Shown here one piece after another: positions 39,621 to 63,843 of a stretch of 64,000 nt of DNA. The translations under genes were made by a program, and so were the position numbers. The notes below the pieces were generated by a model that saw only the letters and a list, made by a program, of their open reading frames with translations, did no database searches and was not told where the DNA came from. The stretch comes from Bacteroidota bacterium (GTDB lineage: Bacteria > Bacteroidota > Bacteroidia > Bacteroidales > JAADJA01), in NCBI GenBank assembly GCA_020444515.1, contig JAHLKX010000004.1, positions 124,001 to 188,000 of the forward strand. Reading direction: 5' to 3'. Position 1 is the stretch's first letter. The number at the start of each line of letters is the position of its first letter.

Positions 39621-39643
39621 TAGCTCCTGATTTGATTAGAACC

Positions 39644-40810
39644 ATGTCATTACCGGAAGTATTCGTTAAATACGCAAAGCATAAAGATCAACTGGTTGTT
39701 GCTATTCAATTTCGATACAACGTAGAACTGATTCATCTTATTAAACAGCTAAAAGGCCGGCAGTGGAGTCAAAGTAAAAAATTCTGGTATATACCTTATG
39801 CAGCAAATCCTTTTAAAGAAATTGCCAATATCCTGGATGGAAAAGCGAAGGTGATCATCAATGAAGCAATGCCTGGTGAAAAGATCCCTTACCGAAAAAT
39901 CGGGACCATCAATGAACCTACGAAAGCGTTTATCCATTCATTTCGGAAATACCTGAAAGGGAAGCGATACAGTGAGAGTTCAGTGCGGACTTATTCGGGT
40001 TTGTTGGAGGATTTTTTTGCCTTCCTAAACAGCAAGGAACCCGCGGAGATCACCAACCGGGATGTTGAATTGTATTGTGAGGATGTGCTCGTACCTATGC
40101 ATTATTCCATCAGCACACAGCGGCAATTCATCAGTGCAATTAAACACCTTATCAAGTTTGAGCCCGGGAGTAAGATCGTTGATATCGAACTGGAAACTCC
40201 GGGTAAATCGTTGTACCGCCCCATTGTACTTTCAAAAGAGGAGGTAATTGATCTGTTGAGGAATACGCGCAATTTAAAACACCGGGCCACGCTGGCGCTG
40301 ATTTATTCAGCGGGATTGCGGATCAGTGAAGTACTGAATTTAAAAATAAGCGATATCGACATTGACCGCTGTCAGGTATTTATAAGGCAGGCGAAAGGTC
40401 GCAAGGACCGGATGGTTATCCTGGCAGAAAGCTTTCTTCCGTTGCTTCAGAATTATTATACGACCTATCAACCTAAGGAATATTTTATTGAAGGTGCACC
40501 GGGGAAAAAATACAGTGCAGAGAGTATCCGATCGTTTTTAAAAGTTTCGTGCCGGCGGGCGCAGATAAAAAAGCATGTAACCCCGCATACGTTGCGTCAT
40601 TCCTTTGCGACCCATTTGCTTGAGAGCGGTGTTGATTTGAGGTATATACAGGTTTTGCTTGGGCATAGCCGGCCTGAAACGACGATGATATATACGCATG
40701 TCAGCAGAAAAGATCTGTTGAAGATAAGCAGTCCATTGGATACGGCCTTAAAAGAGTTAGCGGAAGCGGATAAAGACAATAATAAACTACTGTTATCCCG
40801 CAATTATTGA
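39644..40810 (+). CDS. Tyrosine recombinase adjacent to the cassette array (candidate cassette integrase)
   Basis: A 388-residue tyrosine recombinase (392 if the TTG at 39632 is used). In 388-residue numbering the catalytic set is Arg226 (GLRISEVL), Lys251/254 (AKGRKDR), His315 and Arg318 (HTLRHSFATHL), His341 (LLGHS) and Tyr350 (MIYTHV). The core-binding domain is about 85-175. Before it, residues 10-72 (IQFRYNVELIHLIKQL...WSQSKKFWYIP) resemble the HARP-like module that precedes some Bacteroidota integrases. From the Lys patch to HTLRH there are only about 58 residues, as in XerC/D and not the roughly 100 of IntI1. It reads toward the array and stops 34 bases before the first core site. Confidence 0.9.
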   Translation: MSLPEVFVKYAKHKDQLVVAIQFRYNVELIHLIKQLKGRQWSQSKKFWYIPYAANPFKEIANILDGKAKVIINEAMPGEKIPYRKIGTINEPTKAFIHSFRKYLKGKRYSESSVRTYSGLLEDFFAFLNSKEPAEITNRDVELYCEDVLVPMHYSISTQRQFISAIKHLIKFEPGSKIVDIELETPGKSLYRPIVLSKEEVIDLLRNTRNLKHRATLALIYSAGLRISEVLNLKISDIDIDRCQVFIRQAKGRKDRMVILAESFLPLLQNYYTTYQPKEYFIEGAPGKKYSAESIRSFLKVSCRRAQIKKHVTPHTLRHSFATHLLESGVDLRYIQVLLGHSRPETTMIYTHVSRKDLLKISSPLDTALKELAEADKDNNKLLLSRNY

Positions 40811-40817
40811 CGGGATA
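40794..40817 (+). other. Hairpin spanning the recombinase stop
   Basis: TATCCCG and CGGGATA form a perfect 7-bp stem around a 10-base loop that contains the recombinase stop codon. It may be part of the attI structure or a weak terminator without a T tract. Confidence 0.5.
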
Positions 40818-40821
40818 TCCG

Positions 40822-40829
40822 TAAGTTTG
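40822..40829 (+). promoter_or_regulatory. Candidate cassette (Pc-like) promoter, -7 element
   Basis: TAAGTTTG fits TAnnTTTG and lies between the recombinase stop and the first core site. Transcription would begin near 40836 and run into cassette 1. A -33 element at proper spacing is not visible. Confidence 0.4.
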
Positions 40830-40844
40830 TATGTGATATAACGA

Positions 40845-40851
40845 GTTGGCG
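40845..40851 (+). other. First recombination core site (candidate attI)
   Basis: GTTGGCG at 40845-40851. The ten bases GTTGGCGATA are the exact reverse complement of TATCGCCAAC at 41518-41527, which opens the attC ending cassette 1. By integron logic the cut lies between G40845 and T40846. It lies 3' of the recombinase gene. Confidence 0.7.
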
Positions 40852-40856
40852 ATAAT

Positions 40857-41510
40857 ATGAAAAGGATAGTAGCGATAATATTGTTTTTAATTTCAATTTG
40901 TTGTTATGGCCAATTTGAAAGCCATAAGTTTGAACTTGATACACTAATTTATTTCTATACCTTAGACTCAGATACGATAAATGGTAATTATATTGAAAAT
41001 GACTCTGCAACAGGATATATTAAACAATACAGAAAATTGATTTATAAAAGAAAAGCAATAAGACCTCTAATCCCTTTTGATAGTATCCAATATGATTATG
41101 ATATTCAAATTGACAGAATGTATTTTGGTGAACTTCATAATGGTGAAAAAGTGGGCAAGTGGATAAAGTGGAGCTTTGGTGGAACGACGTATTGTTGGGA
41201 GCAATCAATCTTTGCAATGTATGTAATCGAATATAAAAAAGATACAATCGTTTTTGAAAATGGATTATTACGGCCTTTCAATAAGAGAATCACCTATGTG
41301 GGAGACAGTTCAGAAGTATATGGACAGACTTCAACTGAATCTGATTACTTAATTGAATTCAAATGTGAAAATAAAAGGATTTGTAAATATTGGCTTACTG
41401 AGCCAAAACAAATTATTGACTCAAGTAATTATGCCGACTTACATTTTAAATTAGGTCAATTTGAAATAGGAGAATATGATAGAAAAATAAAAAAAATGAT
41501 AAAAGAATAA
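40857..41510 (+). CDS. Cassette 1: secreted hypothetical protein
   Basis: A 217-residue protein starting 11 bases after the core site. The N-terminus MKRIVAIILFLISICCYGQ is a signal peptide. The rest has no recognised domain; a MORN-like phrase (GELHNGEKVGKWIKW) and many aromatic beta-type stretches suggest a small extracytoplasmic beta-sheet protein. It is AT-rich compared with the core genes. Its closeness to the core leaves no room for its own promoter, so it may depend on the candidate Pc. The function is unknown, as for many cassette genes. Confidence 0.8.
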   Translation: MKRIVAIILFLISICCYGQFESHKFELDTLIYFYTLDSDTINGNYIENDSATGYIKQYRKLIYKRKAIRPLIPFDSIQYDYDIQIDRMYFGELHNGEKVGKWIKWSFGGTTYCWEQSIFAMYVIEYKKDTIVFENGLLRPFNKRITYVGDSSEVYGQTSTESDYLIEFKCENKRICKYWLTEPKQIIDSSNYADLHFKLGQFEIGEYDRKIKKMIKE

Positions 41511-41517
41511 AACATAC

Positions 41518-41645
41518 TATCGCCAACACAGGATAAATGCAATACCGGCAAACGTGGAATTAAATGAAATTAATAAATATCGTACCCAGACAACAGAGAG
41601 ACAGGTAACCAATCCGGTACTGCACTTATCCTGGGAACGTTAGGC
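41518..41645 (+). other. attC1 site
   Basis: It opens with TATCGCCAAC and closes with GTTAGGC (41639-41645). The inner arms AGGATAAATGCAATACCGG (41530-41548) and CCGGTACTGCACTTATCCT (41614-41632) pair over 17 of 19 positions. The two mismatches are A/C on top, which become T/G wobbles on the bottom strand. Confidence 0.88.
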
Positions 41646-41663
41646 AACATAATAAAACACAGA

Positions 41664-42494
41664 ATGATACGAACCTCAGTCATTGAAAAATTTGATAACA
41701 TAATCAAGATTGGTACAACATTAAAAGAAAACTGGTATAGAGGTCATTCAAGTATAATTGAGGAGTTGACGCCTGGAATATATCGAAAACCATATTCAAA
41801 CAAAATATATCAAGAATTTAGATCTGATATCGAATTTCAATATGCTGAAGATTTTAAAAGAAAAGCACCCTCTATTTCAACAAATTTACCTGAAATAGAC
41901 AATCACATTGAATGGCTATTCCTAATGCAACATCACGGAGTACCAACAAGATTATTGGATTGGACTGAAAATATTTTAGTAGCAACATTTTTTGCTGTCG
42001 AATCAGATTTGGATAAAGATGCTGAATTATGGACCTTCTTACCTTGGAAATTAAATGAACAACATGGTTTTTATGGACTTCCTTCAAACAGTAAAAACAA
42101 AACGCTTCAGTTTCTTTCGCATGAAATTTTCCATAGCAATCCTGAAAAATTAAAAGAAGAATTTGGATTATCTGAAACTCCAAAAGCACCTATGGCTTTT
42201 CTTCCTCCATTATTACATCCACGAATTAGTGTTCAACAAAGTTGTTTTACAATTCATCCCAATCCTCAAAAGGGCTATAGTATTACCGAAATAATTACAG
42301 ATAGCAAATTTTTAATGAGATACATAATTCCAAAAGAACTAAAAAAGACTTTTCGAAGAAATTTAAATAATCTGGGAATTACCTATCGGACACTTTTCCC
42401 AGACTTAGATGGTTTAGCTAAATCATTGAAAGATAAAGAAGATATTATTGCTTGGGGACAACCTGATGCATTAATTTTCAAAGAATATAAATAA
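41664..42494 (+). CDS. Cassette 2: FRG-domain protein
   Basis: A 276-residue protein with the FRG signature: WYRGHS at residues 24-29 and QHHGVPTRLLDW at 89-100, followed by ILVATFFAVE. FRG domains occur in phage-defence and toxin-like proteins. The biochemical activity is unsettled. There is no signal peptide. It starts 24 bases after the core site, and its stop lies 4 bases before the attC2 opening. It is AT-rich. A defence role fits cassette cargo but is inference. Confidence 0.88.
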   Translation: MIRTSVIEKFDNIIKIGTTLKENWYRGHSSIIEELTPGIYRKPYSNKIYQEFRSDIEFQYAEDFKRKAPSISTNLPEIDNHIEWLFLMQHHGVPTRLLDWTENILVATFFAVESDLDKDAELWTFLPWKLNEQHGFYGLPSNSKNKTLQFLSHEIFHSNPEKLKEEFGLSETPKAPMAFLPPLLHPRISVQQSCFTIHPNPQKGYSITEIITDSKFLMRYIIPKELKKTFRRNLNNLGITYRTLFPDLDGLAKSLKDKEDIIAWGQPDALIFKEYK

Positions 42495-42498
42495 TTAC

Positions 42499-42619
42499 GT
42501 TGCCTAACAAAGGCTCATAAGCAATACTGGCAGAAGTGGAATTAATGGAAAACAAAAACATAAAAGTAAGCTACGAAAGATGTACTTTTAAATCCAGTAC
42601 TGCTCATAGCCAAAACCGT
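42499..42619 (+). other. attC2 site, interrupted at its core by an IS
   Basis: It opens with GTTGCCTAAC (42499-42508), the exact reverse complement of GTTAGGCAAC that starts cassette 2. The arms are GGCTCATAAGCAATACTGG (42512-42530) and CCAGTACTGCTCATAGCC (42594-42611). They pair fully except for one unpaired C (42516) and two bottom-strand T/G wobbles. The core GTT is split: G42618-T42619 on the left and G44297-T44298-T44299 on the right of the IS. Confidence 0.88.
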
Positions 42620-44294
42620 CAGACTGTCTAAAAACCCACAATCAGCTGTTAAAAACAAATACAGATAATTTTCATCCAAAAGCCCTAATTTCCGACCTTT
42701 AAATTATGAGATTTATTCAAGGTCAAGATCGAACACAAGCCACCCTTTTCCCCGTTTCATTGGATGCCACGATTGATCCCGACAATGAAGTCCGGATCAT
42801 CGACTTGTTTGTGGATAGCCTTCAACTGAAAGACTTCGGATTCCGGGCTGATTTTCCTGAGAACGGACGCCCGGCTTATCACCCTTCTGATATTCTGAAG
42901 CTCTACATTTACGGTTATATGAACAAGGTGCGTTCATCGCGCGATCTGGAAAAGGAGTGCAAACGAAACATCGAAGTGATGTGGTTATTAAAAAGCTTAA
43001 AGCCCGACCACAACACCATTTCCAACTTTCGAAGGGACAATCCCACGGCCATTAAAAAGGTATTCCGAGCCACTGTGCAAATGGCCAAACACTTTAACCT
43101 GATCGGGGCCCGGCTGCTGGCAGGCGACAGCAGCAAGTTCAGAGCGCAAAACAGCAAGAAGAACAACTTCAATCAAAAGAAGATCGGACGGCACATCGGG
43201 TACATCGATAACAAGGTGGATGAATACAATAAGAAGCTGGCCGAAGCCGACGGGGAAGAACAGCAGCAAATTAACAATGACATTGACAAACAAAACCGTC
43301 GTAAAGACAAATACCTAAAGCTCGAGAAGCAGTTGAAAGAGACCGGCCAGGTCCAGGTATCCACCTCCGATCCCGATAGCCGGCAGATGATAATCCGCAA
43401 TAACATTACCGAGGTGGCATACAACGTGCAAACTACCGTAGATGCAAAACACAACCTTCCCGTTGATTACAAGGTGACCAATGCAAACGACTCAAAAGCC
43501 ATGGGCAACATGCTACAGCGAGCTAAAACCATTCTTGGAACAAATAGCTTTACAGCTCTCTACGACAAAGGCTACCACACCGGAAGCGAATTTGATATCG
43601 CCGAGAAACTGGGCATTGAAGTGATGGTGGCCATTCCGGCCAGGCCAACTACATCCCATGCCCCTGATCCTGAATACGACGTTGAACACTTTTTTTATAA
43701 CGAACAATCCGACACCTACACCTGTCCCCAGGGACATACCATGACCACCAACGGAACCTGGCACCAGTCCAAAAGCGGCAGCATGTTCCAGCAATACCGA
43801 ACCCCGCAGTGTAAGAGCTGCCCCGTCCGGCCAAAGTGCACCAAGTCAGCGCTTAATGGAAAAATCATCCAGCGACGTAAGTATGCTAAGAACATCGAAG
43901 ACAACAGGATCAGGATGGAAAACAACCTGGCCACTTACAAACGACGGCAGGCCATAGTGGAGCACCCCTACGGTACCATCAAACGGCAGTGGGGGTTCAG
44001 CTACATCACCACCAAAAAATACATGAAAAGGGCAAGTTCCGATGTAGGACTGATGTTTGTGGCTTACAACATTCGTCGGTTAATCAGTATTTTAGGGAAA
44101 AATGGATTCAAAAACTACCTGGAAAGGGTAGCTTTTTCCATATCCGGGTTAAAACAGAAAATATTGTTGAAATTAGTTAAATTTAGAGCACTCAAATTTT
44201 GCCGATCAATGATCAAATCTTTATTTGAAAGTCCCTTAAATTGGCTTAAATTTGATCGGTTATTAATCAATTTAGGTAGTTTTTAGACGAACTG
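42620..44294 (+). mobile_element. IS1182-like insertion sequence
   Basis: A 1675-bp element. The ends are CAGACTGTCTAAAAAC (left) and, read inward from the right, CAGTTCGTCTAAAAAC: 13 of 16 identical. The flanking CCGT (42616-42619 and 44295-44298) is a 4-bp target duplication. One intact transposase gene fills the element. The unaltered duplication suggests a recent insertion. Confidence 0.92.
42706..44286 (+). CDS. IS1182-family transposase
   Basis: A 526-residue transposase. The N-terminal DUF772 part reads RPAYHPSDILKLYIYGYMNKVRSSRDLEKEC and the DDE core has LAGDSSKFRAQNSKKNNF. A charged coiled coil (IDNKVDEYNKKLAEAD) follows, then TALYDKGYHTGSEF and CKSCPVRPKC (zinc-like cysteines). The C-terminus has VEHPYGTIKRQWGF. 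Length and motifs match IS1182. It appears intact and is richer in G+C than the cassette genes around it. It stops 8 bases before the right end of the element. Confidence 0.95.
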   Translation: MRFIQGQDRTQATLFPVSLDATIDPDNEVRIIDLFVDSLQLKDFGFRADFPENGRPAYHPSDILKLYIYGYMNKVRSSRDLEKECKRNIEVMWLLKSLKPDHNTISNFRRDNPTAIKKVFRATVQMAKHFNLIGARLLAGDSSKFRAQNSKKNNFNQKKIGRHIGYIDNKVDEYNKKLAEADGEEQQQINNDIDKQNRRKDKYLKLEKQLKETGQVQVSTSDPDSRQMIIRNNITEVAYNVQTTVDAKHNLPVDYKVTNANDSKAMGNMLQRAKTILGTNSFTALYDKGYHTGSEFDIAEKLGIEVMVAIPARPTTSHAPDPEYDVEHFFYNEQSDTYTCPQGHTMTTNGTWHQSKSGSMFQQYRTPQCKSCPVRPKCTKSALNGKIIQRRKYAKNIEDNRIRMENNLATYKRRQAIVEHPYGTIKRQWGFSYITTKKYMKRASSDVGLMFVAYNIRRLISILGKNGFKNYLERVAFSISGLKQKILLKLVKFRALKFCRSMIKSLFESPLNWLKFDRLLINLGSF

Positions 44295-44385
44295 CCGTTG
44301 TGTTTAATGCTAAGAGACATCGTGCTACTAATAAAAGAATAAGCTGAAAGATGATTTTAAAACACCATTCAGCTGTTCTGAAAAT

Positions 44386-44730
44386 TTAATCGTGAGATTC
44401 GACGTGCCAGGCCTGTTCTACAGTGTGAAGATTAGCCTTGATGTCTGTTGTCCAACTTTTAACCTTAGCAGACAAACCTGATTTCATGATTTTTTCAGCG
44501 TGTTCGCTTTTCATGAAGTTTGTAAATTTTTCACGACTTGTCCATAAAGAGATACCTGTAATAGGACCGTTCTTTTGTTCGGGCTTCAATGACATGCTCA
44601 TTAATGCTCCATCCTGTTCTTTTATCATTTCAGAAGTTTCTTTTAACATGTTTAATACTTCATCAAAATGTTCATCTTTTGGAAAATAGTTCTCTGTTAC
44701 TAAATACGGTTTTGTATCCATTTTATTCAA
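44386..44730 (-). CDS. Cassette 3: antibiotic biosynthesis monooxygenase (ABM)-like protein
   Basis: A 114-residue ferredoxin-like-fold protein. Typical ABM segments are YLVTENYFPKDEHFDEVLNMLKET, GALMSMSLKPEQ and GISLWTSREKFTNFMKSEHAEK. Members act on quinone-like compounds or are just small binding proteins; no cofactor is needed. It is the only cassette gene on the minus strand and is divergent from the MarR gene across a 121-base region with an operator-like palindrome, so it is probably a MarR target. The start may be the ATG at 44730 or 44721. Confidence 0.78.
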   Translation of the reverse strand: MNKMDTKPYLVTENYFPKDEHFDEVLNMLKETSEMIKEQDGALMSMSLKPEQKNGPITGISLWTSREKFTNFMKSEHAEKIMKSGLSAKVKSWTTDIKANLHTVEQAWHVESHD

Positions 44731-44775
44731 ATTTTAAGTTATTAAAAATATATTACTATGTTTTCGATACAAATA

Positions 44776-44799
44776 TATGTATTTAGATTCAAATACATA
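44776..44799. promoter_or_regulatory. Operator-like palindrome in the ABM-MarR divergent region
   Basis: TATGTATTT, a 6-base spacer and AAATACATA form a perfect 9-bp inverted repeat. It overlaps the ABM-side -7 candidate TATATTTG (minus strand, 44770-44777) and lies upstream of the MarR promoter. This is the expected place for MarR to repress both directions. Confidence 0.65.
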
Positions 44800-44815
44800 G
44801 TTATAGCGCATTTAT

Positions 44816-44847
44816 TTTGTATGTTTTTGATATAAATTGTATTTTTG
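44816..44847 (+). promoter_or_regulatory. Promoter of the MarR-SDR pair
   Basis: TTTG (44816-44819), a 20-base spacer and TATTTTTG (44840-44847) fit the consensus. The -7 element ends 4 bases before the ATG at 44852, so the transcript may be leaderless. Confidence 0.65.
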
Positions 44848-44851
44848 GAAT

Positions 44852-45454
44852 ATGAATAATTCATTAAATATTGTAACTGAGTTGGTTGAACAACTTAAAA
44901 GGTTTGAAAGCGAAAAGGGGCAAGAACCAAAAGACCTTAAAGAATTTACCGTTTGGTTAAATCAAGTTGTTTTTGAGCATCATACTTCTTCGGAGTCGGG
45001 TCATGAAAAAAATGATATTGATATGGAGTTAACTTTTCTTCTGATAATGCAAAACAAACATTACAAAACATATTGTAAAGAAGCATTAGTTGAAACTGAA
45101 ATAAATTCTCCTGATGAATATAGCTTTTTATATCATTTAAGCTTAGTTGACAGTTTTAGAAAAATGGAATTAATTCATATTCACCTCTTAGAAGCCCCAT
45201 CTGGAATTGAGGTTATTAAAAGACTGTTAAAAAAGGACTTTATTGAGGAATTTGATGACCCCGATGATAAAAGGGCAAAACGTGTTAGAATAACTGAGAA
45301 AGGTAGACTTGAAACTGAGCGGTTAACACCAAATATGAAGAAAGTTTATTCCAAAATGACAGCAGAAATGTCATTTAAAGAAAAAAGTCATGTAATATCA
45401 TTTCTTAGAGAACTAAACGATTATCATTCAACCCCAAAAGACAAAAGGAAATAA
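44852..45454 (+). CDS. Cassette 3: MarR-family regulator
   Basis: A 200-residue winged-helix protein. The DNA-binding part has IHIHLLEAPSGIEVIKRLLKKDFIEEFDDPDDKRAKRVRITEKG, a MarR wing with the D-x-R-AKRV-x-IT pattern. The frame extends to an ATG at 44837, but the promoter's -7 element lies there, so the ATG at 44852 (MNNSLNIVTEL) is used. It starts next to its promoter and its stop is 2 bases before the SDR gene. It probably represses itself, the SDR and the divergent ABM gene. Confidence 0.85.
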   Translation: MNNSLNIVTELVEQLKRFESEKGQEPKDLKEFTVWLNQVVFEHHTSSESGHEKNDIDMELTFLLIMQNKHYKTYCKEALVETEINSPDEYSFLYHLSLVDSFRKMELIHIHLLEAPSGIEVIKRLLKKDFIEEFDDPDDKRAKRVRITEKGRLETERLTPNMKKVYSKMTAEMSFKEKSHVISFLRELNDYHSTPKDKRK

Positions 45455-45456
45455 CT

Positions 45457-46293
45457 ATGAACAATAAGATATGTTTAATAACTGGTTGCAACTCGGGTAT
45501 TGGAAAAGTTACTGCAATAGAACTTGCTAAAAAAGGCTGTGAAATTATTATGTTAGTGCGTGATAGTGAAAAGTCAAGAATAGCATTTGAGGAAATAAAA
45601 AGTGCTTCCGGCGGAAAAGTAATACTAAAATATGTTGACCTTGCATCACTTGATTCTATTAAGAAAATATCGGAAGAAATTAAATCACAGTATGATAGAA
45701 TTGATATTCTTATTAATAATGCAGGATTGTTTAAAAGAAGTCCTGAGACATCGGTTGATTCTTTTGAAATGACATTAGCCGTAAATTACTTTGCAACTTA
45801 TGCCCTTTCTATATTAATGATTCCTTTATTGAAAAACAGTAAAAAAGCGAGGATAATAAATCTAACTTCGGAATTATACAAGCGTGGCAAGGTGAATTTG
45901 GAGAATGATTTTGGAATTGAAAAGTTTAATGGAAATAAAGCTTATGCAAACTCAAAACTTCTTGTTGTTTATTTTACAAAGGAACTTTCAAAACGATTAG
46001 AATCAAAAAATATTAGTGTAAATTGCGTTCATCCAGGAGTTATTGGAACTGATGTTTTTAGGGAGTACCCAAAATGGTTTGCAAAGTTTATGAATATATT
46101 GATTTCTAAACCTACAGAGGGAGCTAAACCATCGATTTATCTTGCAAGCTTTGAAGAATTGGATAATGTAACAGGTAAATACTTCTACAAGACAAAACAA
46201 AAAGATACAGATAAATTAGCCAATGATTTAGATTTGTCGGAAAAGATTTGGATAAAAACAGAAAAATTGACAGGAATAAAATATGCTGAATAA
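45457..46293 (+). CDS. Cassette 3: short-chain dehydrogenase/reductase
   Basis: A 278-residue classical SDR of the retinol-dehydrogenase-like type. It has the cofactor motif TGCNSGIGKVTAIELAKKG, ILINNAGLF, a catalytic Ser in INLTSELY, Tyr and Lys in AYANSKLLVVY, and VHPGVIGTD. R residues after the second strand (MLVRDSEKSR) suggest NADP use. It starts 2 bases after the MarR stop and forms an operon with it. The substrate is unknown. An ABM/MarR/SDR set suggests handling of quinones or aldehydes. Confidence 0.88.
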   Translation: MNNKICLITGCNSGIGKVTAIELAKKGCEIIMLVRDSEKSRIAFEEIKSASGGKVILKYVDLASLDSIKKISEEIKSQYDRIDILINNAGLFKRSPETSVDSFEMTLAVNYFATYALSILMIPLLKNSKKARIINLTSELYKRGKVNLENDFGIEKFNGNKAYANSKLLVVYFTKELSKRLESKNISVNCVHPGVIGTDVFREYPKWFAKFMNILISKPTEGAKPSIYLASFEELDNVTGKYFYKTKQKDTDKLANDLDLSEKIWIKTEKLTGIKYAE

Positions 46294-46301
46294 AGCACTA
46301 A

Positions 46302-46450
46302 AACACAACAAGCGTTCATAAATCATTGCGCGGATAGTGGTATCCCGAAAGCTTTCGGGATTGAACGAAATAACATTTAATCAACGGCTTAGTGGGCTGA
46401 TAAATTTGTGCTTCGAAATGCGCAACGTTTCATGCCGCAATCCGTTGGGA
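46302..46450 (+). other. attC3 site
   Basis: It opens with AACACAAC, the exact reverse complement of GTTGTGTT at 44297-44304 (start of cassette 3), and closes with GTTGGGA (46444-46450). The arms 46312-46331 (GCGTTCATAAATCATTGCGC) and 46420-46438 (GCGCAACGTTTCATGCCGC) pair imperfectly with a one-base bulge. The 88-base loop contains the perfect palindrome TCCCGAAAGCTTTCGGGA. Confidence 0.78.
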
Positions 46451-46472
46451 TTCATAAAAAACAGACAATAAA

Positions 46473-47357
46473 GTGAAAAATAACATTTTCAAAATATTGA
46501 CTATAATCCTTTTCATATTCATCACTTCTTGTGATTCAGGTGACCAGACACTTGACAATCTTTCTTCCAATTACATTACACTCAATGATTCTAAAATTCA
46601 TTACAAAGAATACGGACAAGGCGAAAAAACTTTGATTTTCGTTCATGGCTGGGGGTGCGACCTGAACATTTGGAAGTATCAGTTTGACTACTTCAAAGAT
46701 AAATATCACTTAGTGCTAATTGATTTGCCAGGTTATGGACAAAGTGACAAAGTAGAAAAAGACTACAACATAGATTTATTCGCTCAATCTGTTTTAGAGA
46801 TAATTAGTGATTTTGAAATAAAGAATCCTGTATTGGTTGCTCATAGTATGGGACTACCTGTTGCGAAAGAAGTCATGAAACAATTGAATTCTGAAAATGC
46901 AATGCTGTGCAATATTGATGGAGTATATTTTGATTTCCCGGCAGACAGCATTGAAAATATTCAATACAAAGAAGGCTTGACCGAATTTGCCAATATGTTC
47001 AATGGTGAAAATTACAAGCAGAATGTAGAGCAGTTCTGTAATGGCTTTATCACAGAAACAACCCCAGAAGACGTAAGAAATTATATTCTCTCAACAATGA
47101 CTGAAACACCTCAGAAAATCGGCTATCAGTCAATGAAAAGTTTAATAGACCAAAAATATTGGGATAAGGAAGTATTCAATAACCAGACGATTGCGATTTA
47201 TGCAAGAACTGCTGATTTACCACCCGACAATGAAAACATTTTAAGGAGACAGTTCCCTAATTTGACATACATAGAGATGGATAATGTGAATCATTTTCTT
47301 ATGATGGAAAAACCAAAGGAAGTGAATGATATATTGAAAGGATTTATCGAAAAATAA
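46473..47357 (+). CDS. Cassette 4: alpha/beta-hydrolase lipoprotein
   Basis: A 294-residue protein with a GTG start 28 bases after the core. The N-terminus ends in a lipobox (IFITSCDSG), so it is membrane-anchored. The alpha/beta-hydrolase motifs are IFVHGWGCDLNIWKYQ (oxyanion), LVAHSMGLPVAKE (Ser nucleophile), IAIYARTADLPPD (acid region) and NVNHFLMMEKP (His). It could be an esterase or peptidase; the substrate is unknown. It is AT-rich like its neighbours. Confidence 0.88.
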   Translation: MKNNIFKILTIILFIFITSCDSGDQTLDNLSSNYITLNDSKIHYKEYGQGEKTLIFVHGWGCDLNIWKYQFDYFKDKYHLVLIDLPGYGQSDKVEKDYNIDLFAQSVLEIISDFEIKNPVLVAHSMGLPVAKEVMKQLNSENAMLCNIDGVYFDFPADSIENIQYKEGLTEFANMFNGENYKQNVEQFCNGFITETTPEDVRNYILSTMTETPQKIGYQSMKSLIDQKYWDKEVFNNQTIAIYARTADLPPDNENILRRQFPNLTYIEMDNVNHFLMMEKPKEVNDILKGFIEK

Positions 47358-47365
47358 GTAGGAAC

Positions 47366-47496
47366 GCGCAACAAAGGCTATACTTAATGCGGGTTTTAGT
47401 GCTAAGTTGAAAACAAATGAATACTAACAAACACATTAGCAGGCGGGCAGTGAATTGCTTTCTTATCCCGCATTACGCATAGCCAAACCGTTACCA
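47366..47496 (+). other. attC4 site
   Basis: It opens with GCGCAAC and closes with GTTACCA (47490-47496). The arms GGCTATACTTAATGCGGG (47376-47393) and CCCGCATTACGCATAGCC (47467-47484) pair over 16 of 18 positions. Against the cassette 4 start (GTTGGGA) the opening matches only 5 of 7, the weakest pair among the well-formed sites. Confidence 0.85.
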
Positions 47497-47512
47497 ACAA
47501 GCACAATAAAAT

Positions 47513-47544
47513 TTTGACGAATACGTATTAAATACATATATTTG
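47513..47544 (+). promoter_or_regulatory. Promoter carried in cassette 5 for the toxin-antitoxin pair
   Basis: TTTG (47513-47516), 20 bases, then TATATTTG (47537-47544): a full Bacteroidota consensus promoter. The start would fall near 47550, 19 bases before the ATG at 47569. Confidence 0.78.
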
Positions 47545-47568
47545 CACGTACATAAAATATTTCTTAAA

Positions 47569-47811
47569 ATGGACACTAAACTGACTTTAAAGCTGAACAA
47601 ATCAATTATAGAACGGGCAAAACAATATGCGAATGAACAGAATATCAGCCTTTCTAAAATGATTGAAAACTATCTGCAAGCATTAACAAACAAAAAAGAT
47701 GATGAAAATGAAATTTCACCTTTGGTTGAAAGCTTGACAGGTGTAATTAAAGCATCCTCTGAAGACCTGAAAAAAGACTATTCCAATTTCCTGACAAACA
47801 AATACAAATAA
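47569..47811 (+). CDS. Cassette 5: antitoxin (DUF6364-like)
   Basis: An 80-residue protein starting MDTKLTLKLNKSIIERAKQY. It has a ribbon-helix-helix N-terminus followed by an acidic C-terminal tail (SLTGVIKASSEDLKKDYSNF) of the kind that binds a PIN toxin. The frame runs up to 47542, but the -7 element covers that part. Its stop overlaps the toxin's ATG by one base (TAATG), implying coupled translation. Confidence 0.85.
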   Translation: MDTKLTLKLNKSIIERAKQYANEQNISLSKMIENYLQALTNKKDDENEISPLVESLTGVIKASSEDLKKDYSNFLTNKYK

Positions 47812-48221
47812 TGGATAAAATTCTGGTTGACACAAATATAATTATTGATCTTTTATCAAAACGTGAAGAATTCTATATTGCGGCAAGTAGATTATTTACA
47901 TTATCAGACCATAATAAAGTGAATTTATCAATTACATCACTAACTTTTGCCAACACATATTATATTCTTTCAAAAGAGCTTAAACCGGACAAGGTAAAAG
48001 AGATTTTAAGAAAATTTAAATTGTTAGTACATGTTTTACCACTCAATGAAAAAATAATTGATTTATCCCTGAATTCAGACTTTAGAGATTTTGAAGATGC
48101 TATCCAATATTTCACTGCTGTTGAAAATAATCTTGAAATTATAATCACCCGGAATTTAAAAGATTTTAAATCATCTATAATACCGGTAATGACAGCTGAA
48201 ACTTATTTAAAAATGAAATAG
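47811..48221 (+). CDS. Cassette 5: PIN-domain toxin (VapC-like)
   Basis: A 136-residue PIN nuclease. Conserved acidic residues are Asp7 in LVDTNIIIDLL, Asp96 in RDFEDAIQYF and the final TRNLKDFK. PIN toxins cut tRNA or rRNA when the labile antitoxin is lost. Together with the antitoxin this is a classic integron-cassette addiction module that could stabilise the array. Translation overlaps the antitoxin by one base. Confidence 0.92.
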   Translation: MDKILVDTNIIIDLLSKREEFYIAASRLFTLSDHNKVNLSITSLTFANTYYILSKELKPDKVKEILRKFKLLVHVLPLNEKIIDLSLNSDFRDFEDAIQYFTAVENNLEIIITRNLKDFKSSIIPVMTAETYLKMK

Positions 48222-48231
48222 AAGTGCCAGG

Positions 48232-48362
48232 TGGTAAAAGCACCTATAGCAAATGGCCTATTTACCTTACCCAAAACCAAAATTTGTTAAAATTGAAATG
48301 AGGGAAACTAACATAAAATAGATCCGCAAGCGGCCACGTGCTATAGCCGCGGAACGTTAGAG
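48232..48362 (+). other. attC5 site
   Basis: It opens with TGGTAAA (6 of 7 complementary to GTTACCA, the start of cassette 5) and closes with GTTAGAG (48356-48362). The arms GCACCTATAGCAAATGGCC (48240-48258) and GGCCACGTGCTATAGCCGC (48332-48350) pair over 15 of 19 positions. Confidence 0.8.
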
Positions 48363-48381
48363 TGCATTTAGAATCTACAAA

Positions 48382-48960
48382 ATGAAAGACAAGTACTATC
48401 ATACAAAGGAATCTGTGGAAGAATATATTGAACTGGCAAGAGATGTAGATAGTAGAGGACTTATAGAGAAGTTTAAACAAATCTTACCTCATAATTCGAA
48501 GGTACTTGAAATTGGTTCTGGACCAGGTTCAGATTGGAAGATTCTTAGTACAACATATCGAGTTATTGGATCAGACAACTCGTCATTATTTGTAGATCAT
48601 CTCAGAACAAATAATCCTGGCGGTAAATTCATTGAATTGGATGCAATTACTCTTGATACAAATATTAAGTTTGAGGGCATATATTCAAACAAAGTATTAC
48701 ATCATCTAAAAGACAGTGAATTGGTTGATTCTATAATCAGGCAATATAATCTATTGAGGCCTGGAGGGATTGTTTGCCATTCATTTTGGAAAGGAGAAGG
48801 GACTGAAGACTTTAAGGGCATGTATGTTAATTATCAGACTGAGAAAACCCTTAAAAAAATGTTTGAAGATTACTTTGAGATACTATCTATCGAACAATAT
48901 AAAGAATTTGAAGAATCTGATTCTCTGGTAATAATAGGAAGGAAAAGAAACGCACTCTAA
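48382..48960 (+). CDS. Cassette 6: class I SAM-dependent methyltransferase
   Basis: A 192-residue protein with motif I VLEIGSGPGSDWKIL, motif II region VIGSDNSSLFVDHL, GIYSNKVLHHL (motif IV-like) and LLRPGGIVCHSFWKG. It is a small free-standing methyltransferase with no target-recognition domain, so the substrate is unknown. The stop codon lies inside the R'' box of attC6 (CACTCTAAC), a tight fit typical of cassette genes. Confidence 0.88.
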   Translation: MKDKYYHTKESVEEYIELARDVDSRGLIEKFKQILPHNSKVLEIGSGPGSDWKILSTTYRVIGSDNSSLFVDHLRTNNPGGKFIELDAITLDTNIKFEGIYSNKVLHHLKDSELVDSIIRQYNLLRPGGIVCHSFWKGEGTEDFKGMYVNYQTEKTLKKMFEDYFEILSIEQYKEFEESDSLVIIGRKRNAL

Positions 48961-49080
48961 CATAAGGACATATTTAATGCCGCAGATTCTGCACCTAAAA
49001 AAAAGGTTTTGAAAATAAACTCCAACTTAAATAACCAAAGACAAGAGAAGCGGCACTAAATATATCGCAAACCTTTGATA
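48952..49080 (+). other. attC6 site with altered core
   Basis: It opens with GCACTCTAAC, the exact reverse complement of GTTAGAGTGC that starts cassette 6. The arms GGACATATTTAATGCCGC (48966-48983) and GCGGCACTAAATATATCGC (49050-49068) pair well, with mainly bottom-strand wobbles. Where other sites read AAACCGTT, this one reads AAACCTTT (49069-49076): the conserved G is T. Confidence 0.83.
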
Positions 49081-49102
49081 GCAACTACAAAAACAGGAAA
49101 TC

Positions 49103-50815
49103 ATGTTTAACCAAATTGAAATTATCCTTACTACTCTATGTCTGGTGCTTAGTGCCATATTTCTGACTCTATTTATTGTTCGCATCAGGGGTGTTTACTT
49201 TAGGAAAAATGCTAGAGTTTCTGTGTGGGATAAAAAAGTAAGCCTATTGAACAAGTCAGGCAAATTAATCATGGCAATATCATTGTTTCTGGCGGCTTCT
49301 GGAGTAATTTACTTTATATTCTTTGTTTCAACACATTTGAAATTTATAAGTGTATTTGCCAAAATTACTTTGACTATCACCTTTGGATTATGGACTCTTT
49401 TAGAGGTTTATTTGTGCCTGTCGGTTTCACAAAAACTAATCAGTGGTTCAATATTCAGACGTATCGTATTTTTCTTTGCTGTAATTATATGCATTTTTGG
49501 TGCTGCTTATTTGTTTCCTCCCATCCCCAGGTCACTGCTTTTCCCGGAATTCGATGATGACACCCAACAGCTTAGTTTCCCGCGGACTCCATGTGGGCAT
49601 TGCGCTTCTGATTATTTTAAAGCCTTTAATTCAGGTGACCCAGATCAAATGCAGACATTTATTCAAAAGTACAGATCTGAGTCTTACTTAAAGAGCAGAA
49701 CGATGACAGAACAAATTGAATCGTACAAATTTATGTTTATGATGGGCGGGATATTGACTCCGGTTAGACTGATAGAGATATCTGATTATGAAATCATTGT
49801 TTTTGCCCAAACAAGTAAGGAAGCTAAGTTGGCAAAAACCCGCTTCGAGGTTGACATCCCGGAGCCACATCATCTTCTCGTTTATACCATCACACCCACC
49901 TCTCCTGAAGAAGCACTAAAAATCACGACCATTGATCCTCTTATTATTAAAAATACCATTGATTCTTTGGCAGTGATTTTAAGGGAGAATTATGTCTATC
50001 CTGAAAAAGGGGAAATAATGGCTGATTCATTAAACTATTATTTTTCCTCCGGAAGATATAATGAAATAACCGATGGTTCCGTTTTATCGCTCCGATTGAC
50101 AGAAGATCTTTGGCCACTCTGCCACGACAAGCATCTTAGTGTCACTTATGGTAGGATTTCCGAAGAAGACAGTACATCGATTCCAGAATCAGATAGTTCT
50201 TTCAATTACGGCTTTCGTAGCAGTGAAATTATTGAAAACAACATTGGCTATATTCGATTCGATGAGTTTAATGGTACTGATGAAGCGAAAGCGGTTGCAG
50301 CTAAAGCGTTTGAGACTGTTGCTGACTGTGATGCCTTAATTTTCGATTTACGTTACAACACCGGGGGATCACCCACGCTCGTTCAATTCATCTATTGCTA
50401 TCTTTTCGATAAGCCAACTTTTGTGGGCAGTCGTTACAACCGGATCCTCAATGATACCATTGAATTCTGGACTCAAACGGAAATTCCGGGCAAACCATTT
50501 GATGCCCATATACCCTTGTATATTTTAACAAGTTCAAATACCTTCTCAGCAGCGGAAGAATTGGCCTACTTTTTAAAAGATATGAAACGGGCAATTATTG
50601 TGGGGGAAATTACAGGTGGGGGAGCTCATCCCATAATCCATATTTCAGTCAATGATTATTTTGGAGTAAGAATACCCTATGCCCGTGCAATAAGTCCTGT
50701 GAGTAAGACCGATTGGGAGGGAATTGGTGTCATTCCGGACATTCAAGTTTCCATGGATGATGCATTAGAAGCTGCATCTAAAGATGCCATCAAGAATTTT
50801 AAATTGAAAAATTAG
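49103..50815 (+). CDS. Cassette 7: membrane-anchored S41-family peptidase
   Basis: A 570-residue protein. The first 150 residues hold four membrane segments (such as IEIILTTLCLVLSAIFLTLF and LIMAISLFLAASGVIYFIFF). The C-terminal S41 domain has NIGYIRFDEFNG, LIFDLRYNTGGSP and TSSNTFSAAEELAYF, with the likely nucleophile near residue 482, then GEITGGGAHP. Soluble IRBP-type S41 peptidases share this pattern. The four-helix anchor is not typical of CtpA. It is unusually large for a cassette. It begins 29 bases after the altered core of attC6. Confidence 0.88.
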   Translation: MFNQIEIILTTLCLVLSAIFLTLFIVRIRGVYFRKNARVSVWDKKVSLLNKSGKLIMAISLFLAASGVIYFIFFVSTHLKFISVFAKITLTITFGLWTLLEVYLCLSVSQKLISGSIFRRIVFFFAVIICIFGAAYLFPPIPRSLLFPEFDDDTQQLSFPRTPCGHCASDYFKAFNSGDPDQMQTFIQKYRSESYLKSRTMTEQIESYKFMFMMGGILTPVRLIEISDYEIIVFAQTSKEAKLAKTRFEVDIPEPHHLLVYTITPTSPEEALKITTIDPLIIKNTIDSLAVILRENYVYPEKGEIMADSLNYYFSSGRYNEITDGSVLSLRLTEDLWPLCHDKHLSVTYGRISEEDSTSIPESDSSFNYGFRSSEIIENNIGYIRFDEFNGTDEAKAVAAKAFETVADCDALIFDLRYNTGGSPTLVQFIYCYLFDKPTFVGSRYNRILNDTIEFWTQTEIPGKPFDAHIPLYILTSSNTFSAAEELAYFLKDMKRAIIVGEITGGGAHPIIHISVNDYFGVRIPYARAISPVSKTDWEGIGVIPDIQVSMDDALEAASKDAIKNFKLKN

Positions 50816-50919
50816 CAAATACAGACCAGAAATAAAATGATTAAACATTTAAAATATTTATTATTATTTTTAAAGTTATAAAGAATAATATTAAGGATTC
50901 TAGTGGAAAGAAACTACTG

Positions 50920-51048
50920 CCTACACACAATCATAGCCAATTGGTGCATTAGGGTAATCAAGAAAAAGAAGTGGAAATATTAATAACATACGAATCATAA
51001 AGTACCCTGTAAAAAAAACCAACTGGCCATATTGCGGGAAGGTTGTAA
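50920..51048 (+). other. attC7 site
   Basis: The arms CAATCATAGCCAATTGG (50928-50944) and CCAACTGGCCATATTG (51019-51034) pair fully except for one unpaired C (50932) and two bottom-strand T/G wobbles, exactly the pattern of attC2. It closes with GTTGTAA (51042-51048). The opening (CCTACAC) does not match the start of cassette 7, so this is a partly degenerate site. Confidence 0.7.
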
Positions 51049-51067
51049 TCCATATTAAACAAACTAC

Positions 51068-53017
51068 ATGCTAAGACAATTTATCTTACTCATTCTAATG
51101 TGTCTCTTTACCGGATTGACCAGGGCACAGAATCCCGACTCACTCTACACTATTTGGCAAGACCAGACCCAACAAGACTCAACCAGGGTAAACGCCTTTC
51201 AGGAATACATCTGGAACGGTTATATTTTCTCAAAACCCGATAGTGCGCTTGGCCTGGCCAATGAACTTCAGGAATATGCCGAAAAACAAAATTATCCCAG
51301 GGCACAAGCAGTTGCTGATTATACCAGATCTGCTGTCATGTATCTACGTGGAGATTATGCCAGGGCTCTTGAATTCAATACCAAAAGCATCGAACTTTCT
51401 GAAAGCATTGATGCAAAAAAAATGACAGCCTCCAACCTCAATATGTTTGGGCTAATTTTTGAAAAACAGGGGGTTTATTCAAAAGCGTTGCACTATCATC
51501 AAAGAAGCCTTATGCTATCGGAAGAAATCAATGATAAGCGTGGAGTTGCCTTCAGTTTAAATAACATTGGTGAGATATTAGAAGCACAGGGAAATAGTGT
51601 TAAAGCATTGGATAATTTTGAGCGTAGCCTTACAATCTTAGAGGGCCTTGATATGAAGAGATATGTTGCTGGTGCATTAGCGAATATCGGGACTTGTTAT
51701 ACCAACCTGGGGAATTATTCACTGGCCTTTGATTTTTACCAACGAAGCCTGAACGATTATGAAGAAATTGACGACAAACTTGGGATTATTCAAACCCTTC
51801 ATATGTTTGGGAGAGCTTACTACCAGCAGAAAGACACCATCCAGGCATTGACTTATTTTCAAGAGAGTCTCAAAATGAGTCGGGAAATTGACTATCCGCG
51901 TGGAGCCGTCTTAAGCCTTACCGATATCGGTAGAACCTATTATGATCTTGAAAAATACAGCCAGGCACTTGCGTATTGTCAGGAATCCTACAAACTTTCA
52001 AAAGAGATGGGTGCAATGGAACTTCAAAAAGATGCCTGTGATTGCATCTACTCGAATTATAAAGCGACTGACAATAAAGCGCAGGCATTGGCTTACCTGG
52101 AAGAATTGAACCGACTTGATGATTCGCTTGGAGAAAAGGAGACAGCAAAAATCCTTCAACGCATGGATTTTGAGCGAACAATGCTGGCCGACAGCATTGC
52201 CAAAGCTGAAGAAGCCCGCCTGGTGGAAGAAGCCCATAAGGAGGAAATGCGCAACGAGGAGAAAAACAGAAATATCTCAATGGGTATCGGTTCCTTTTTC
52301 ATTTTGCTTGCCGGAGGGTTTTACAGTCGCTGGCGATATGTGAAAAAATCAAAAGCTAAATTACAAGAAGAGAAAGACCGATCTGATAATCTCCTGCTCA
52401 ACATCCTGCCCGAAGAAGTCGCCCGGGAACTCAAAGAAAAAGGTAAGGCCGAAGCCAGGCATTTTGATAGTGTGAGCATACTTTTTACTGATTTTAAAGG
52501 TTTCACCGAGCAAAGTACCCAACTCAGCGCAGCCGAATTGGTAAATGAACTTAACCAATGTTATGAAGCTTTTGATGGCATTGTGGAAAAGTATAACATC
52601 GAAAAAATTAAAACCATTGGAGATGCCTATATGGCAGCTGGTGGCTTGCCGGTGCAAACCAGTGATTCATTAAAAAATACCGTGTTGGCCACCTTGGAAA
52701 TGCAGGATTTCATTACCCGCCGAAAAGCAGAAAGAGATGCCAAAGGCGAACCGGCCTTTGAAATGCGGGTGGGCATTCACACCGGCCCGGTGGTAGCTGG
52801 TATTGTGGGTGTAAAAAAATTTCAATATGACATCTGGGGCGATACTGTTAATACCGCCAGTCGCATGGAATCTTCAGGAGAAGTTGGGAAGGTGAACATA
52901 AGTGAAACTACTTATGAATTGCTGAAAGAAGATGCCAATTTCGCTTTCGAGCGTCGTGGTATGATCGAGGTAAAAGGAAAAGGCAAGATCGAAATGTATT
53001 TTGTCGCTAAGCAATGA
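51068..53017 (+). CDS. Cassette 8: TPR-linked class III adenylate cyclase
   Basis: A 649-residue protein: signal peptide (residues 1-20), about seven TPR units (such as ASNLNMFGLIFEKQGVYSKA), a coiled coil, a membrane segment near 407 (MGIGSFFILLAGGFYSRW), then a cyclase domain from about 450. Metal ligands are in FTDFKGFTEQS and GDAYMAAGG. Lys in EKIKTIGD and Asp in YDIWGDTVNTASRME are the ATP-selecting pair, so it should make cAMP and not cGMP. The layout matches the TPR hybrid kinase at 30.8 kb with a different output. Confidence 0.92.
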   Translation: MLRQFILLILMCLFTGLTRAQNPDSLYTIWQDQTQQDSTRVNAFQEYIWNGYIFSKPDSALGLANELQEYAEKQNYPRAQAVADYTRSAVMYLRGDYARALEFNTKSIELSESIDAKKMTASNLNMFGLIFEKQGVYSKALHYHQRSLMLSEEINDKRGVAFSLNNIGEILEAQGNSVKALDNFERSLTILEGLDMKRYVAGALANIGTCYTNLGNYSLAFDFYQRSLNDYEEIDDKLGIIQTLHMFGRAYYQQKDTIQALTYFQESLKMSREIDYPRGAVLSLTDIGRTYYDLEKYSQALAYCQESYKLSKEMGAMELQKDACDCIYSNYKATDNKAQALAYLEELNRLDDSLGEKETAKILQRMDFERTMLADSIAKAEEARLVEEAHKEEMRNEEKNRNISMGIGSFFILLAGGFYSRWRYVKKSKAKLQEEKDRSDNLLLNILPEEVARELKEKGKAEARHFDSVSILFTDFKGFTEQSTQLSAAELVNELNQCYEAFDGIVEKYNIEKIKTIGDAYMAAGGLPVQTSDSLKNTVLATLEMQDFITRRKAERDAKGEPAFEMRVGIHTGPVVAGIVGVKKFQYDIWGDTVNTASRMESSGEVGKVNISETTYELLKEDANFAFERRGMIEVKGKGKIEMYFVAKQ

Positions 53018-53034
53018 ATGAAATTAAATACATC

Positions 53035-53167
53035 ATACAACAAGGATGTATACAAAAAATTGCTGTAATAGTCGCAAAATAAAATATTAAAGTCCGGTTG
53101 AACATTATCATCACTTAGAAATGAGGCGTTTCGAGATCGGCAACATTTTATATACTGAACGTTGGCA
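53035..53167 (+). other. attC8 site (last recognised)
   Basis: It opens with ATACAAC, complementary in 6 of 7 bases to GTTGTAA that starts cassette 8, and closes with GTTGGCA (53161-53167). The arms GTATACAAAAAATTGC (53048-53063) and GCAACATTTTATATAC (53140-53155) pair over 13 of 16 positions. No further site was found after the next gene. Confidence 0.7.
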
Positions 53168-53207
53168 TCAATGTAAATAAATCCTGATTAAACATATAGG
53201 GTCACGT

Positions 53208-62508: not shown

Positions 62509-62951
62509 GAGTTCTCTTTCTTAATTTTGTTTAAAACAAATTAATGTCGGTCCGACTTTCCGTAATTCAATGAGAAATCAATTGCTGGAGTGAGGGATTA
62601 TATTATTGAAACAGCAAAAGGGAGTAATGACTGATTGAAATCAAAAATGGCATAAACCTGCTACAAAGATATGCTATTCTTCTGAGAGATACCTGAATTA
62701 TATTGATAATAAACTAATTAACAAAAAAATCAGCCTTTAAAAACGGATCATAAAGCATACGGGTTTTTGTGATTTTTTGACAGATTTTGTTATCTTTAGG
62801 TTTTAGCGAGAGACAAGTGAATGCAGCAAAACACCTTACAATTTCATACCCGGAGACTGTTGCGGTCATCAAAACATGAAATTGTAAACATGCATGCTGG
62901 CAGGCAGGAGCATCATGCAACACATATTGGCAAAGCAATAAAAAATTCTTT
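62509..62951. other. Intergenic stretch with a 12-bp inverted repeat
   Basis: TTTG (62766-62769) and TATCTTTA (62791-62798), 21 bases apart, could be a promoter. After it, TTACAATTTCAT (62836-62847) and ATGAAATTGTAA (62876-62887) form a perfect inverted repeat with a 28-base loop in the presumed leader of the next gene. No gene is seen. Confidence 0.55.
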
Positions 62952-63596: not shown

Positions 63597-63843
63597 TCAA
63601 TTTAATGGATTAATAGCGCTTATTCTAAATTATCTTATGAATAAACCTACACTAAATCATAATTAAAAAAGACAAGGGCAGCATGCAGGATTGTATAAAC
63701 GTAATGCGGGTTGAGTTGCTTAAATTGAGTTTTGAGGCGCAAATAACTTTCATGTTATTAGGAAAATAAATCATTCCGAATCCAGCACTATGTTGATCCT
63801 TGGCCTTTGCCAAAAGGCAACATAACAGCTCAAATACTGTGAA

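Follow-up and report, generated by a model that had tools for sequence, protein, structure and literature searches.

Integrons are reported to be rare in the Bacteroidota. In the accessible part of a 2022 survey (PMC9024848), earlier records for the Bacteroidetes were of In0 elements only, to which one complete integron (Salinibacter) was added, together with integrons in Chlorobi and Ignavibacteriae; the available text of two further papers counts the Bacteroidota among the phyla with integrons (PMC8618304 and PMC9668308), and that of PMC2426708, which lists the Bacteroidetes/Chlorobi group, gives the additional domain of the integrase as required. The eleven taxon models of attC in the accessible portion of PMC8352920 include none for Bacteroidetes, no word beginning with Bacteroid or Flavobact occurs in the available main text of PMC8352920 or PMC7370490, the excerpted text of PMC8138268 notes no cassette system for the phylum, and that of PMC8459023 names no integrase or Xer. 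Across the partial texts of the literature searched, a body outside which preprints and most subscription papers fall, no description was found of a Bacteroidota cassette system with a non-IntI recombinase. Here we describe an array of gene cassettes next to a tyrosine recombinase gene in a 64,000-nt stretch of contig JAHLKX010000004.1 from a Bacteroidota bacterium (the window). A preliminary description, made from the sequence alone, had proposed an integron-type array of a perhaps little-known type beside a non-standard recombinase. The array proposal is supported by matches to a covariance model (R1) built from 46 sites of other genomes, window excluded, and by the circular match of cassette ends; the recombinase, which has no IntI insertion and falls outside the IntI clade, is non-standard as stated. 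Sequence comparison leads us to conclude, with a probability of roughly 0.88, that this Xer-like recombinase captures, excises and shuffles cassettes by recombining attI with the folded bottom strand of attC. Judged from R1 matches, end complementarity and exact G|TT boundaries in other genomes, the array works like an integron, but not a classical one.

With classical integrons the array shares a G|TT core, circular complementarity, palindromic sites, a predicted bottom-strand fold, an attI beside the recombinase and cassettes of one or a few genes. It differs from them in that the recombinase lacks the IntI insertion, lies outside the IntI clade and, in the window, faces the array; in a stem mostly without extrahelical bases, a near-invariant G.T pair and an A/G step at position 11 of the cassette ends; and in attI copies elsewhere in the genome that carry single cassettes. 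The classical integrase gene is usually, if not universally, divergent from its array. XerC/D-dif modules resemble the locus in their Xer-type catalytic domain (the window recombinase scores 210.7 bits with NCBIfam XerA NF040815, below the cut-off of 220), but dif sites are short, whereas the sites here are long hairpins with a circular end match. Strand-biased circularizing integrative elements use tyrosine recombinases and are self-coding rather than a cassette array. In the accessible text of PMC9345347 they share with the present system integration and a strand-biased circularization. Clusters of attC sites without an integrase (CALIN; PMC9024848, as available) resemble the sites that lie far from any recombinase on other contigs of this genome, but unlike CALIN several of these distant units consist of an attI copy and a single cassette. 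In Riemerella, a member of the same phylum, the available part of PMC13148043 reports homology-independent, same-place insertion of aph(3')-IVb by natural transformation. The gene is preceded by a leader of 27 bp and followed by a trailer of 140 bp, the fold of which is likened to attC by the authors; the same text names no recombinase.

The window sits on a 554-kb contig (G000:C11) of a 5.0-Mb genome. The gene for a 388-aa tyrosine recombinase, transcribed towards the array, is followed, 34 bases past its stop codon, by a row of nine units with cores at 40845, 41639, 42618/44297, 46444, 47490, 48356, ~49074, 51042 and 53161. A palindromic site closes eight of the nine. The preliminary description had counted eight such sites, of which R1 matches seven and the eighth (~48952-49079) folds into a long hairpin; its count of eight cargo units fell one short, the ninth being without a recognisable site. 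All features listed are on the plus strand unless stated.

39644..40810, plus strand: tyrosine recombinase, 388 aa; HARP-like N-terminal, SAM-like and catalytic domains, no IntI insertion; ATG at 39644 (TTG at 39632 in the open reading frame (ORF) list).
40780..40847, plus strand: attI-like site; last recombinase codons, imperfect inverted repeat, TAAGTTTG, GATATAACGA|GTT; based on copies elsewhere in the genome, with the core set by the match to the first inverse core.
40845..41638, plus strand: cassette 1; 217-aa protein without family match (40857-41510); start GTTGGCGATAATAT, end GTTGGCGATAGTAT.
41525..41641, plus strand: attC-like site 1 (R1 E 3.9e-10).
41639..42619, plus strand: cassette 2; FRG-domain protein (41664-42494) with PADLOC PDC-S15 matches; start GTTAGGCAACATAA, end GTTAGGCAACGTAA.
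42506..42620, plus strand: attC-like site 2, core split by IS1182 (R1 E 5e-7).
42620..44294, plus strand: IS1182-family element within the attC core; 4-bp target duplication CCGT.
44297..46443, plus strand: cassette 3; ABM monooxygenase (44386-44730, minus strand), winged-helix regulator (44855-45454), SDR (45457-46293).
46307..46446, plus strand: attC-like site 3 (R1 E 4.1e-8).
46444..47489, plus strand: cassette 4; alpha/beta hydrolase (46473-47357); start/end match partial.
47370..47492, plus strand: attC-like site 4 (R1 E 2.5e-14).
47490..48355, plus strand: cassette 5; DUF6364 protein (47569-47811), PIN-domain protein (47811-48221).
48236..48358, plus strand: attC-like site 5 (R1 E 5.3e-7).
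48356..49073, plus strand: cassette 6; methyltransferase (48382-48960); start GTTAGAGTGCATTT, inverse core GCACTCTAAC.
~48952..49079, plus strand: attC-like site 6, degenerate core TTTGATAG; no R1 match, long hairpin in the fold.
49074..51041, plus strand: cassette 7; S41 peptidase (49103-50815); 49090-50927 identically copied on contig C12.
50922..51044, plus strand: attC-like site 7 (R1 E 2.3e-4).
51042..53160, plus strand: cassette 8; TPR plus guanylate-cyclase domain (51068-53017).
53042..53163, plus strand: attC-like site 8 (R1 E 2.3e-8).
53161..54713, plus strand: unit 9; beta-lactamase-fold hydrolase (53208-54713); no attC-like site found directly downstream.

The IS1182 insertion is exact within its attC core, and such elements may favour these cores.

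Candidate sites in the window and in loci around recombinase relatives were found by a scan for the core [ACG][ACG]GTT[AG] with inverted arms, in which the end-to-end match was not used. The 64 strict sites were reduced to the 46 of R1 by leaving out two false ones (window core 36769 and L068 16699), nine longer than 130 nt and seven others comprising window sites, L031 and three near-duplicates. Scoring with a covariance model had been suggested as a check in which none of the eight sites might score; the seven matches range from E 2.5e-14 to 2.3e-4. Across the genome R1 gave 19 matches at E≤0.1, seven of them within the window array, and an Rfam scan of the window returned no family reaching its gathering threshold. 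Two weak R1 matches, at 62742-62861 and 63690-63808 (E ~0.0015), have ends that do not match; they were set aside and are perhaps remnants.

The start of each intact cassette pairs with the inverse core at its own end. For arrays defined by the scan, which come from the window and from other Bacteroidota, the six bases after GTT agree throughout in 35 of 46 pairs of neighbours, as against 0.48% of 3117 mismatched pairs and at most six perfect pairs per permutation (10000); seven mirror-image sites were dropped for this count, and the null was given equal freedom in placing the inverse core. Both window pairs are among the 11 imperfect ones: the first site of one is false, and the other skips missed sites. 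In arrays of further genomes defined by R1 matches at E≤1e-6, 43 of 72 neighbouring pairs match at six of six bases, compared with 0.71% of 6904 mismatched pairs and no more than six perfect pairs per permutation (5000), in agreement with the earlier judgement that such matching is very unlikely by chance. The match extends over about 14 bases, positions 12-14 all agreeing in 26 of the 35 scan-defined and 33 of the 43 model-defined perfect pairs. Position 11 is set apart: an A at the start lies opposite a G at the end in 35/35 scan-defined perfect pairs (seven with one extra base) and in 41/43 model-defined ones, the other two showing a T and a shifted pattern. In the bottom strand this step is a T.G wobble that lies ten bases beyond the cut. 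Within the window, read from the sequence, the end match of cassettes 1, 2 and 6 goes beyond ten bases, to 14-15, with a single A/G difference at position 11; cassettes 4, 5, 7 and 8 match in part. The two pairs that the preliminary description gives as off by one base correspond to cassettes 5 and 8, each with one difference over seven bases (by eye), and its pair GTTGTGTT/AACACAAC is read across the IS1182 insertion (42620-44294) that splits the third core. Of six pairs from classical arrays, the match ends after 8-9 bases in four, extends to 14 in another and, after a by-eye shift, to 13 in the last; the position-11 step was absent from all six. End complementarity beyond nine bases was thus rejected as a unique trait, and since classical pairs can reach 13-14 bases, only the position-11 step is claimed as distinctive.

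RNAalifold places the 46 sites in a 16-pair stem with compensatory changes in 15 pairs. The stem is 16 nt long on both sides with no extra base in 38 of the 46, and the other eight carry an extra base or lack some. One pair is a near-invariant G.U, present in 45/46 rows of this set, which came from a scan that penalised that mismatch, and in 98 of the 100 lettered rows among the 101 distinct sequences of 105 R1 matches; the stem pairs next to it vary freely. In the alignment of these 105 matches, which was fitted to the model and so favours pairing, 97.1% of cells are paired and covariation is 0.768, against 0.168 when shuffled and at most 0.103 when slid. Over the 64 strict sites (two of them false), bottom-strand wobbles outnumber top-strand wobbles 114 to 26; by this measure 49 sites lean to the bottom strand, 3 to the top and 12 to neither, and DNA folding energy favours the bottom strand in 46 of the 64. 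Because a G.T pair in the bottom strand is an A.C mismatch in the top strand, the wobbles may select the bottom strand and so replace the role of extrahelical bases, which set the strand in classical attC sites according to the accessible text of PMC2727003. The HARP-like N-terminal domain was considered as a reader of the G.T wobble and dropped: recombinase matches in G222, G078 and G086 start past this domain and their arrays keep the wobble, so that no such role is claimed.

The first core of a locus was located by searching for a start in agreement with the first inverse core. One was found in 20 of 25 loci of the recombinase family that have a downstream site, lying 23-247 bp after the stop codon in 18 and ~930 bp after it in two (within 180 bp in 17 of the 20). 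The base before GTT in those 18 attI is A in 12, T in three and C in three; in attC it is C in 104/105 R1 matches, although a filter for C had been applied to the training sites. The attI of this genus overlaps the last recombinase codons, with an inverted repeat (TACTGTTATCC...GGATAACAGTA in G008, by eye), followed, also by eye, by a TTTG stretch and GATA.AA.GA|GTT. As a candidate promoter for the first cassettes, the TAAGTTTG of the window attI fits the Bacteroidota -7 motif, TAnnTTTG, which by eye is not in every attI sequence. A 77-bp attI query recovered three more copies in the window genome and four more in G008 (two of the latter at E 5e-4), and no copy in 19 other relatives searched. 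A further copy was recognised by eye on contig C12 of the window genome, and three looser ones through matching starts among nine other sites checked there. Own-attI queries, of which only two were tried, gave one distant copy each in G005 and a Flavobacteriaceae genome. For eight of nine distant copies from these four genomes there is an attC-like site whose end agrees with the cassette start at 9-10 of the first ten bases and shows A/G at position 11; within the nine, the L208 site is weak (E 0.001) and L204 has no site in its short flank. By eye, the distant copies carry the tail of the recombinase gene, and each one in the window genome precedes one cassette. The largest such unit, L198 2605-12193 (G000 C4), holds a 9.5-kb cassette with a 2778-aa ORF that, judged by eye from its translated start, looks polyketide-synthase-like.

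Spread was surveyed in 296 Bacteroidota genomes at least 90% complete, with at most 11 site candidates scored per genome. R1 sites (E≤1e-5) occur in 148 of them, spanning 87 of 140 genera. The family recombinase (E≤1e-80; at most five candidates scored per genome, many listed matches containing a stop codon) was present in 91, and sites were found in 79 of these 91 as opposed to 69 of the 205 without it (Fisher p 5e-18). Among family loci offering 1.5 kb or more of room, 23 of 33 are followed by a same-strand downstream site, compared with 1 of 32 other loci. Twelve Bacteroidota with the recombinase carry 4 to 64 sites in eleven cases and none in one; eight of the twelve gave training sites, and the other four have 30, 52, 4 and 0. 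R1 matched 0/20 genomes of other phyla, many of which are GC-rich and offer few candidates. The recombinase also occurs on two Chryseobacterium plasmids and one of Rufibacter; R1 finds five sites on one of the former; on the other it finds no site close to the gene, and the Rufibacter plasmid has a single weak one.

Signs of movement come from other genomes. One array of G266 holds a 1004-bp cassette in four identical copies, including one tandem pair, and a fifth, diverged copy. The identity extends from the core G as far as the GTT of the next core, with 1-3 chance bases leftward. A 124-bp gene-less unit of G078 occupies four cores, and its neighbours on either side differ each time; similar gene-less units with some base changes occur in G222 (5 copies) and, in 4 copies, on a Chryseobacterium plasmid. 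The earlier proposal that cassettes were gained by site-specific recombination is supported by the exact G|TT boundaries in these genomes and is not matched by the duplicated S41 cassette of the window, whose copies differ at their ends. The preliminary description had named the same genes in fixed order among relatives as an outcome that would speak against gain; this was not seen, the 16 other members of the genus yielding no more than short matches. Gene-less mini-units (~124 to 270 bp; L161 on the minus strand, L132, L153-L156), which recur at several cores within an array, carry their own inverse core and attC arms. A large array in G266 (C1:1109949-1135673) lies ~1 Mb from the sole family recombinase match listed (2129363).

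Taken together, these data suggest that attC-like sites would be joined by the recombinase to the attI with which its gene ends. A cassette circle would be the substrate, as only there do the halves of the outer stem meet, and the enzyme may act in trans on attI copies elsewhere in the genome, one cassette each. Several observations weigh against this reading. Of the 148 site-bearing genomes, 69 have no family recombinase at E≤1e-80 among the scored candidates, 12 of the 91 with the recombinase have no sites, and 10 of the 33 family loci with room have no downstream site in the scan. Cassettes 4, 5, 7 and 8 match their ends in part only, and a search for a start agreeing at six of seven bases found none for them; likewise only three of the nine other sites checked in this genome had a matching start. 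The S41 cassette and its C12 copy (L193 2334-4171) are 100% identical over 49090-50927 only, which leaves the two with different attC bodies and different first 16 bases. Their boundaries do not fit simple insertion, and this is the only duplicated window cassette found; gene conversion between two old copies is one reading that would explain them. In G222, G078 and G086 the recombinase is divergent from the array, and in G222 attI lies 96 bp before the gene start. The recombinase matches there (L217, L218, L219) begin at profile position 90-101, without the N-terminal domain. Sites of this type can thus occur with another gene order and in the absence of that domain, and co-directional order was dropped as a rule.

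The sites might instead be ordinary attC sites moved by a fast-evolving IntI whose extra domain was lost or shortened. In keeping with this, the integron integrase profile TIGR02249 scores 203.9 bits, PDB 2a3v (VchIntIA) is among the highest TM-scores of the listed structures, the G|TT core and bottom-strand fold are the same, and one family row (L016) joins a weakly supported group of IntI and archaeal sequences (82/82). The TIGR02249 score is under its curated cut-off of 265, however, and 2a3v aligns in two pieces around the gap of the IntI insertion. The R256-H315 spacing is 59 residues (58-64 in the family, 65-67 in XerC/D), against 101 in five IntI rows and 82 in a sixth from the IntI clade (L121). 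In a tree of 101 rows, with deeper forks partly unresolved, the six-row IntI clade and XerC/D are both recovered at 100/100 and no family row falls within the former. As 38 of 46 stems also have no extra base, an ordinary IntI integron appears improbable. Still more so is movement by the host XerC/XerD pair rather than the adjacent recombinase, as in dif-flanked modules: tyrosine-recombinase matches, some XerC/D-like, occur in 26/26 good genomes and would be at hand in the 69 site-bearing genomes without the family enzyme, but the sites track the family recombinase, the first core is mostly within 180 bp of its stop codon, and the attI copies bear the tail of its gene.

That the array was built by this system and no longer moves in this genome is conceivable, if a good deal less probable than not, and concerns present activity, not the identity of the system. 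The IS1182 element in one core, the degenerate core of site 6 and the four partial end matches agree with such a fossil; against it, the recombinase frame is open without stops, cassettes 1, 2 and 6 match but for position 11, and the distant one-cassette units match too. Beyond the window, we lean towards the view that the Bacteroidota have a second, IntI-independent integron lineage of their own, with an Xer-derived recombinase that recognises hairpins through conserved G.T wobbles rather than extrahelical bases, many chromosomal attI in place of one array, and cassettes up to ~10 kb. If the proposed mechanism is right, half of a major phylum where integrons are reported rare would have a cassette system that standard tools likely miss, including the five-site array of a Chryseobacterium plasmid; the wobbles would be a second solution to strand choice in integrons; and homology-independent gene uptake, as reported for a bird pathogen of this phylum, would gain a possible mechanism.

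The structure model of the recombinase has a mean pLDDT of 81.4 and a pTM of 0.56. Its HARP-like N-terminal domain matches Pfam HARP at E 0.0019, below the cut-off of that family, and the best Foldseek hit is SMARCAL1 HARP (4o66) at E 0.03, with none at 0.001. The G008 recombinase is 64% identical to that of the window, and the best 10 of 1079 matches to phage records are at most 36.6% identical. Elsewhere in the window genome, a site 87% identical to window site 1 occurs at L195 1328-2026 (G000 C14), behind a two-gene pair that by eye is toxin-antitoxin-like.

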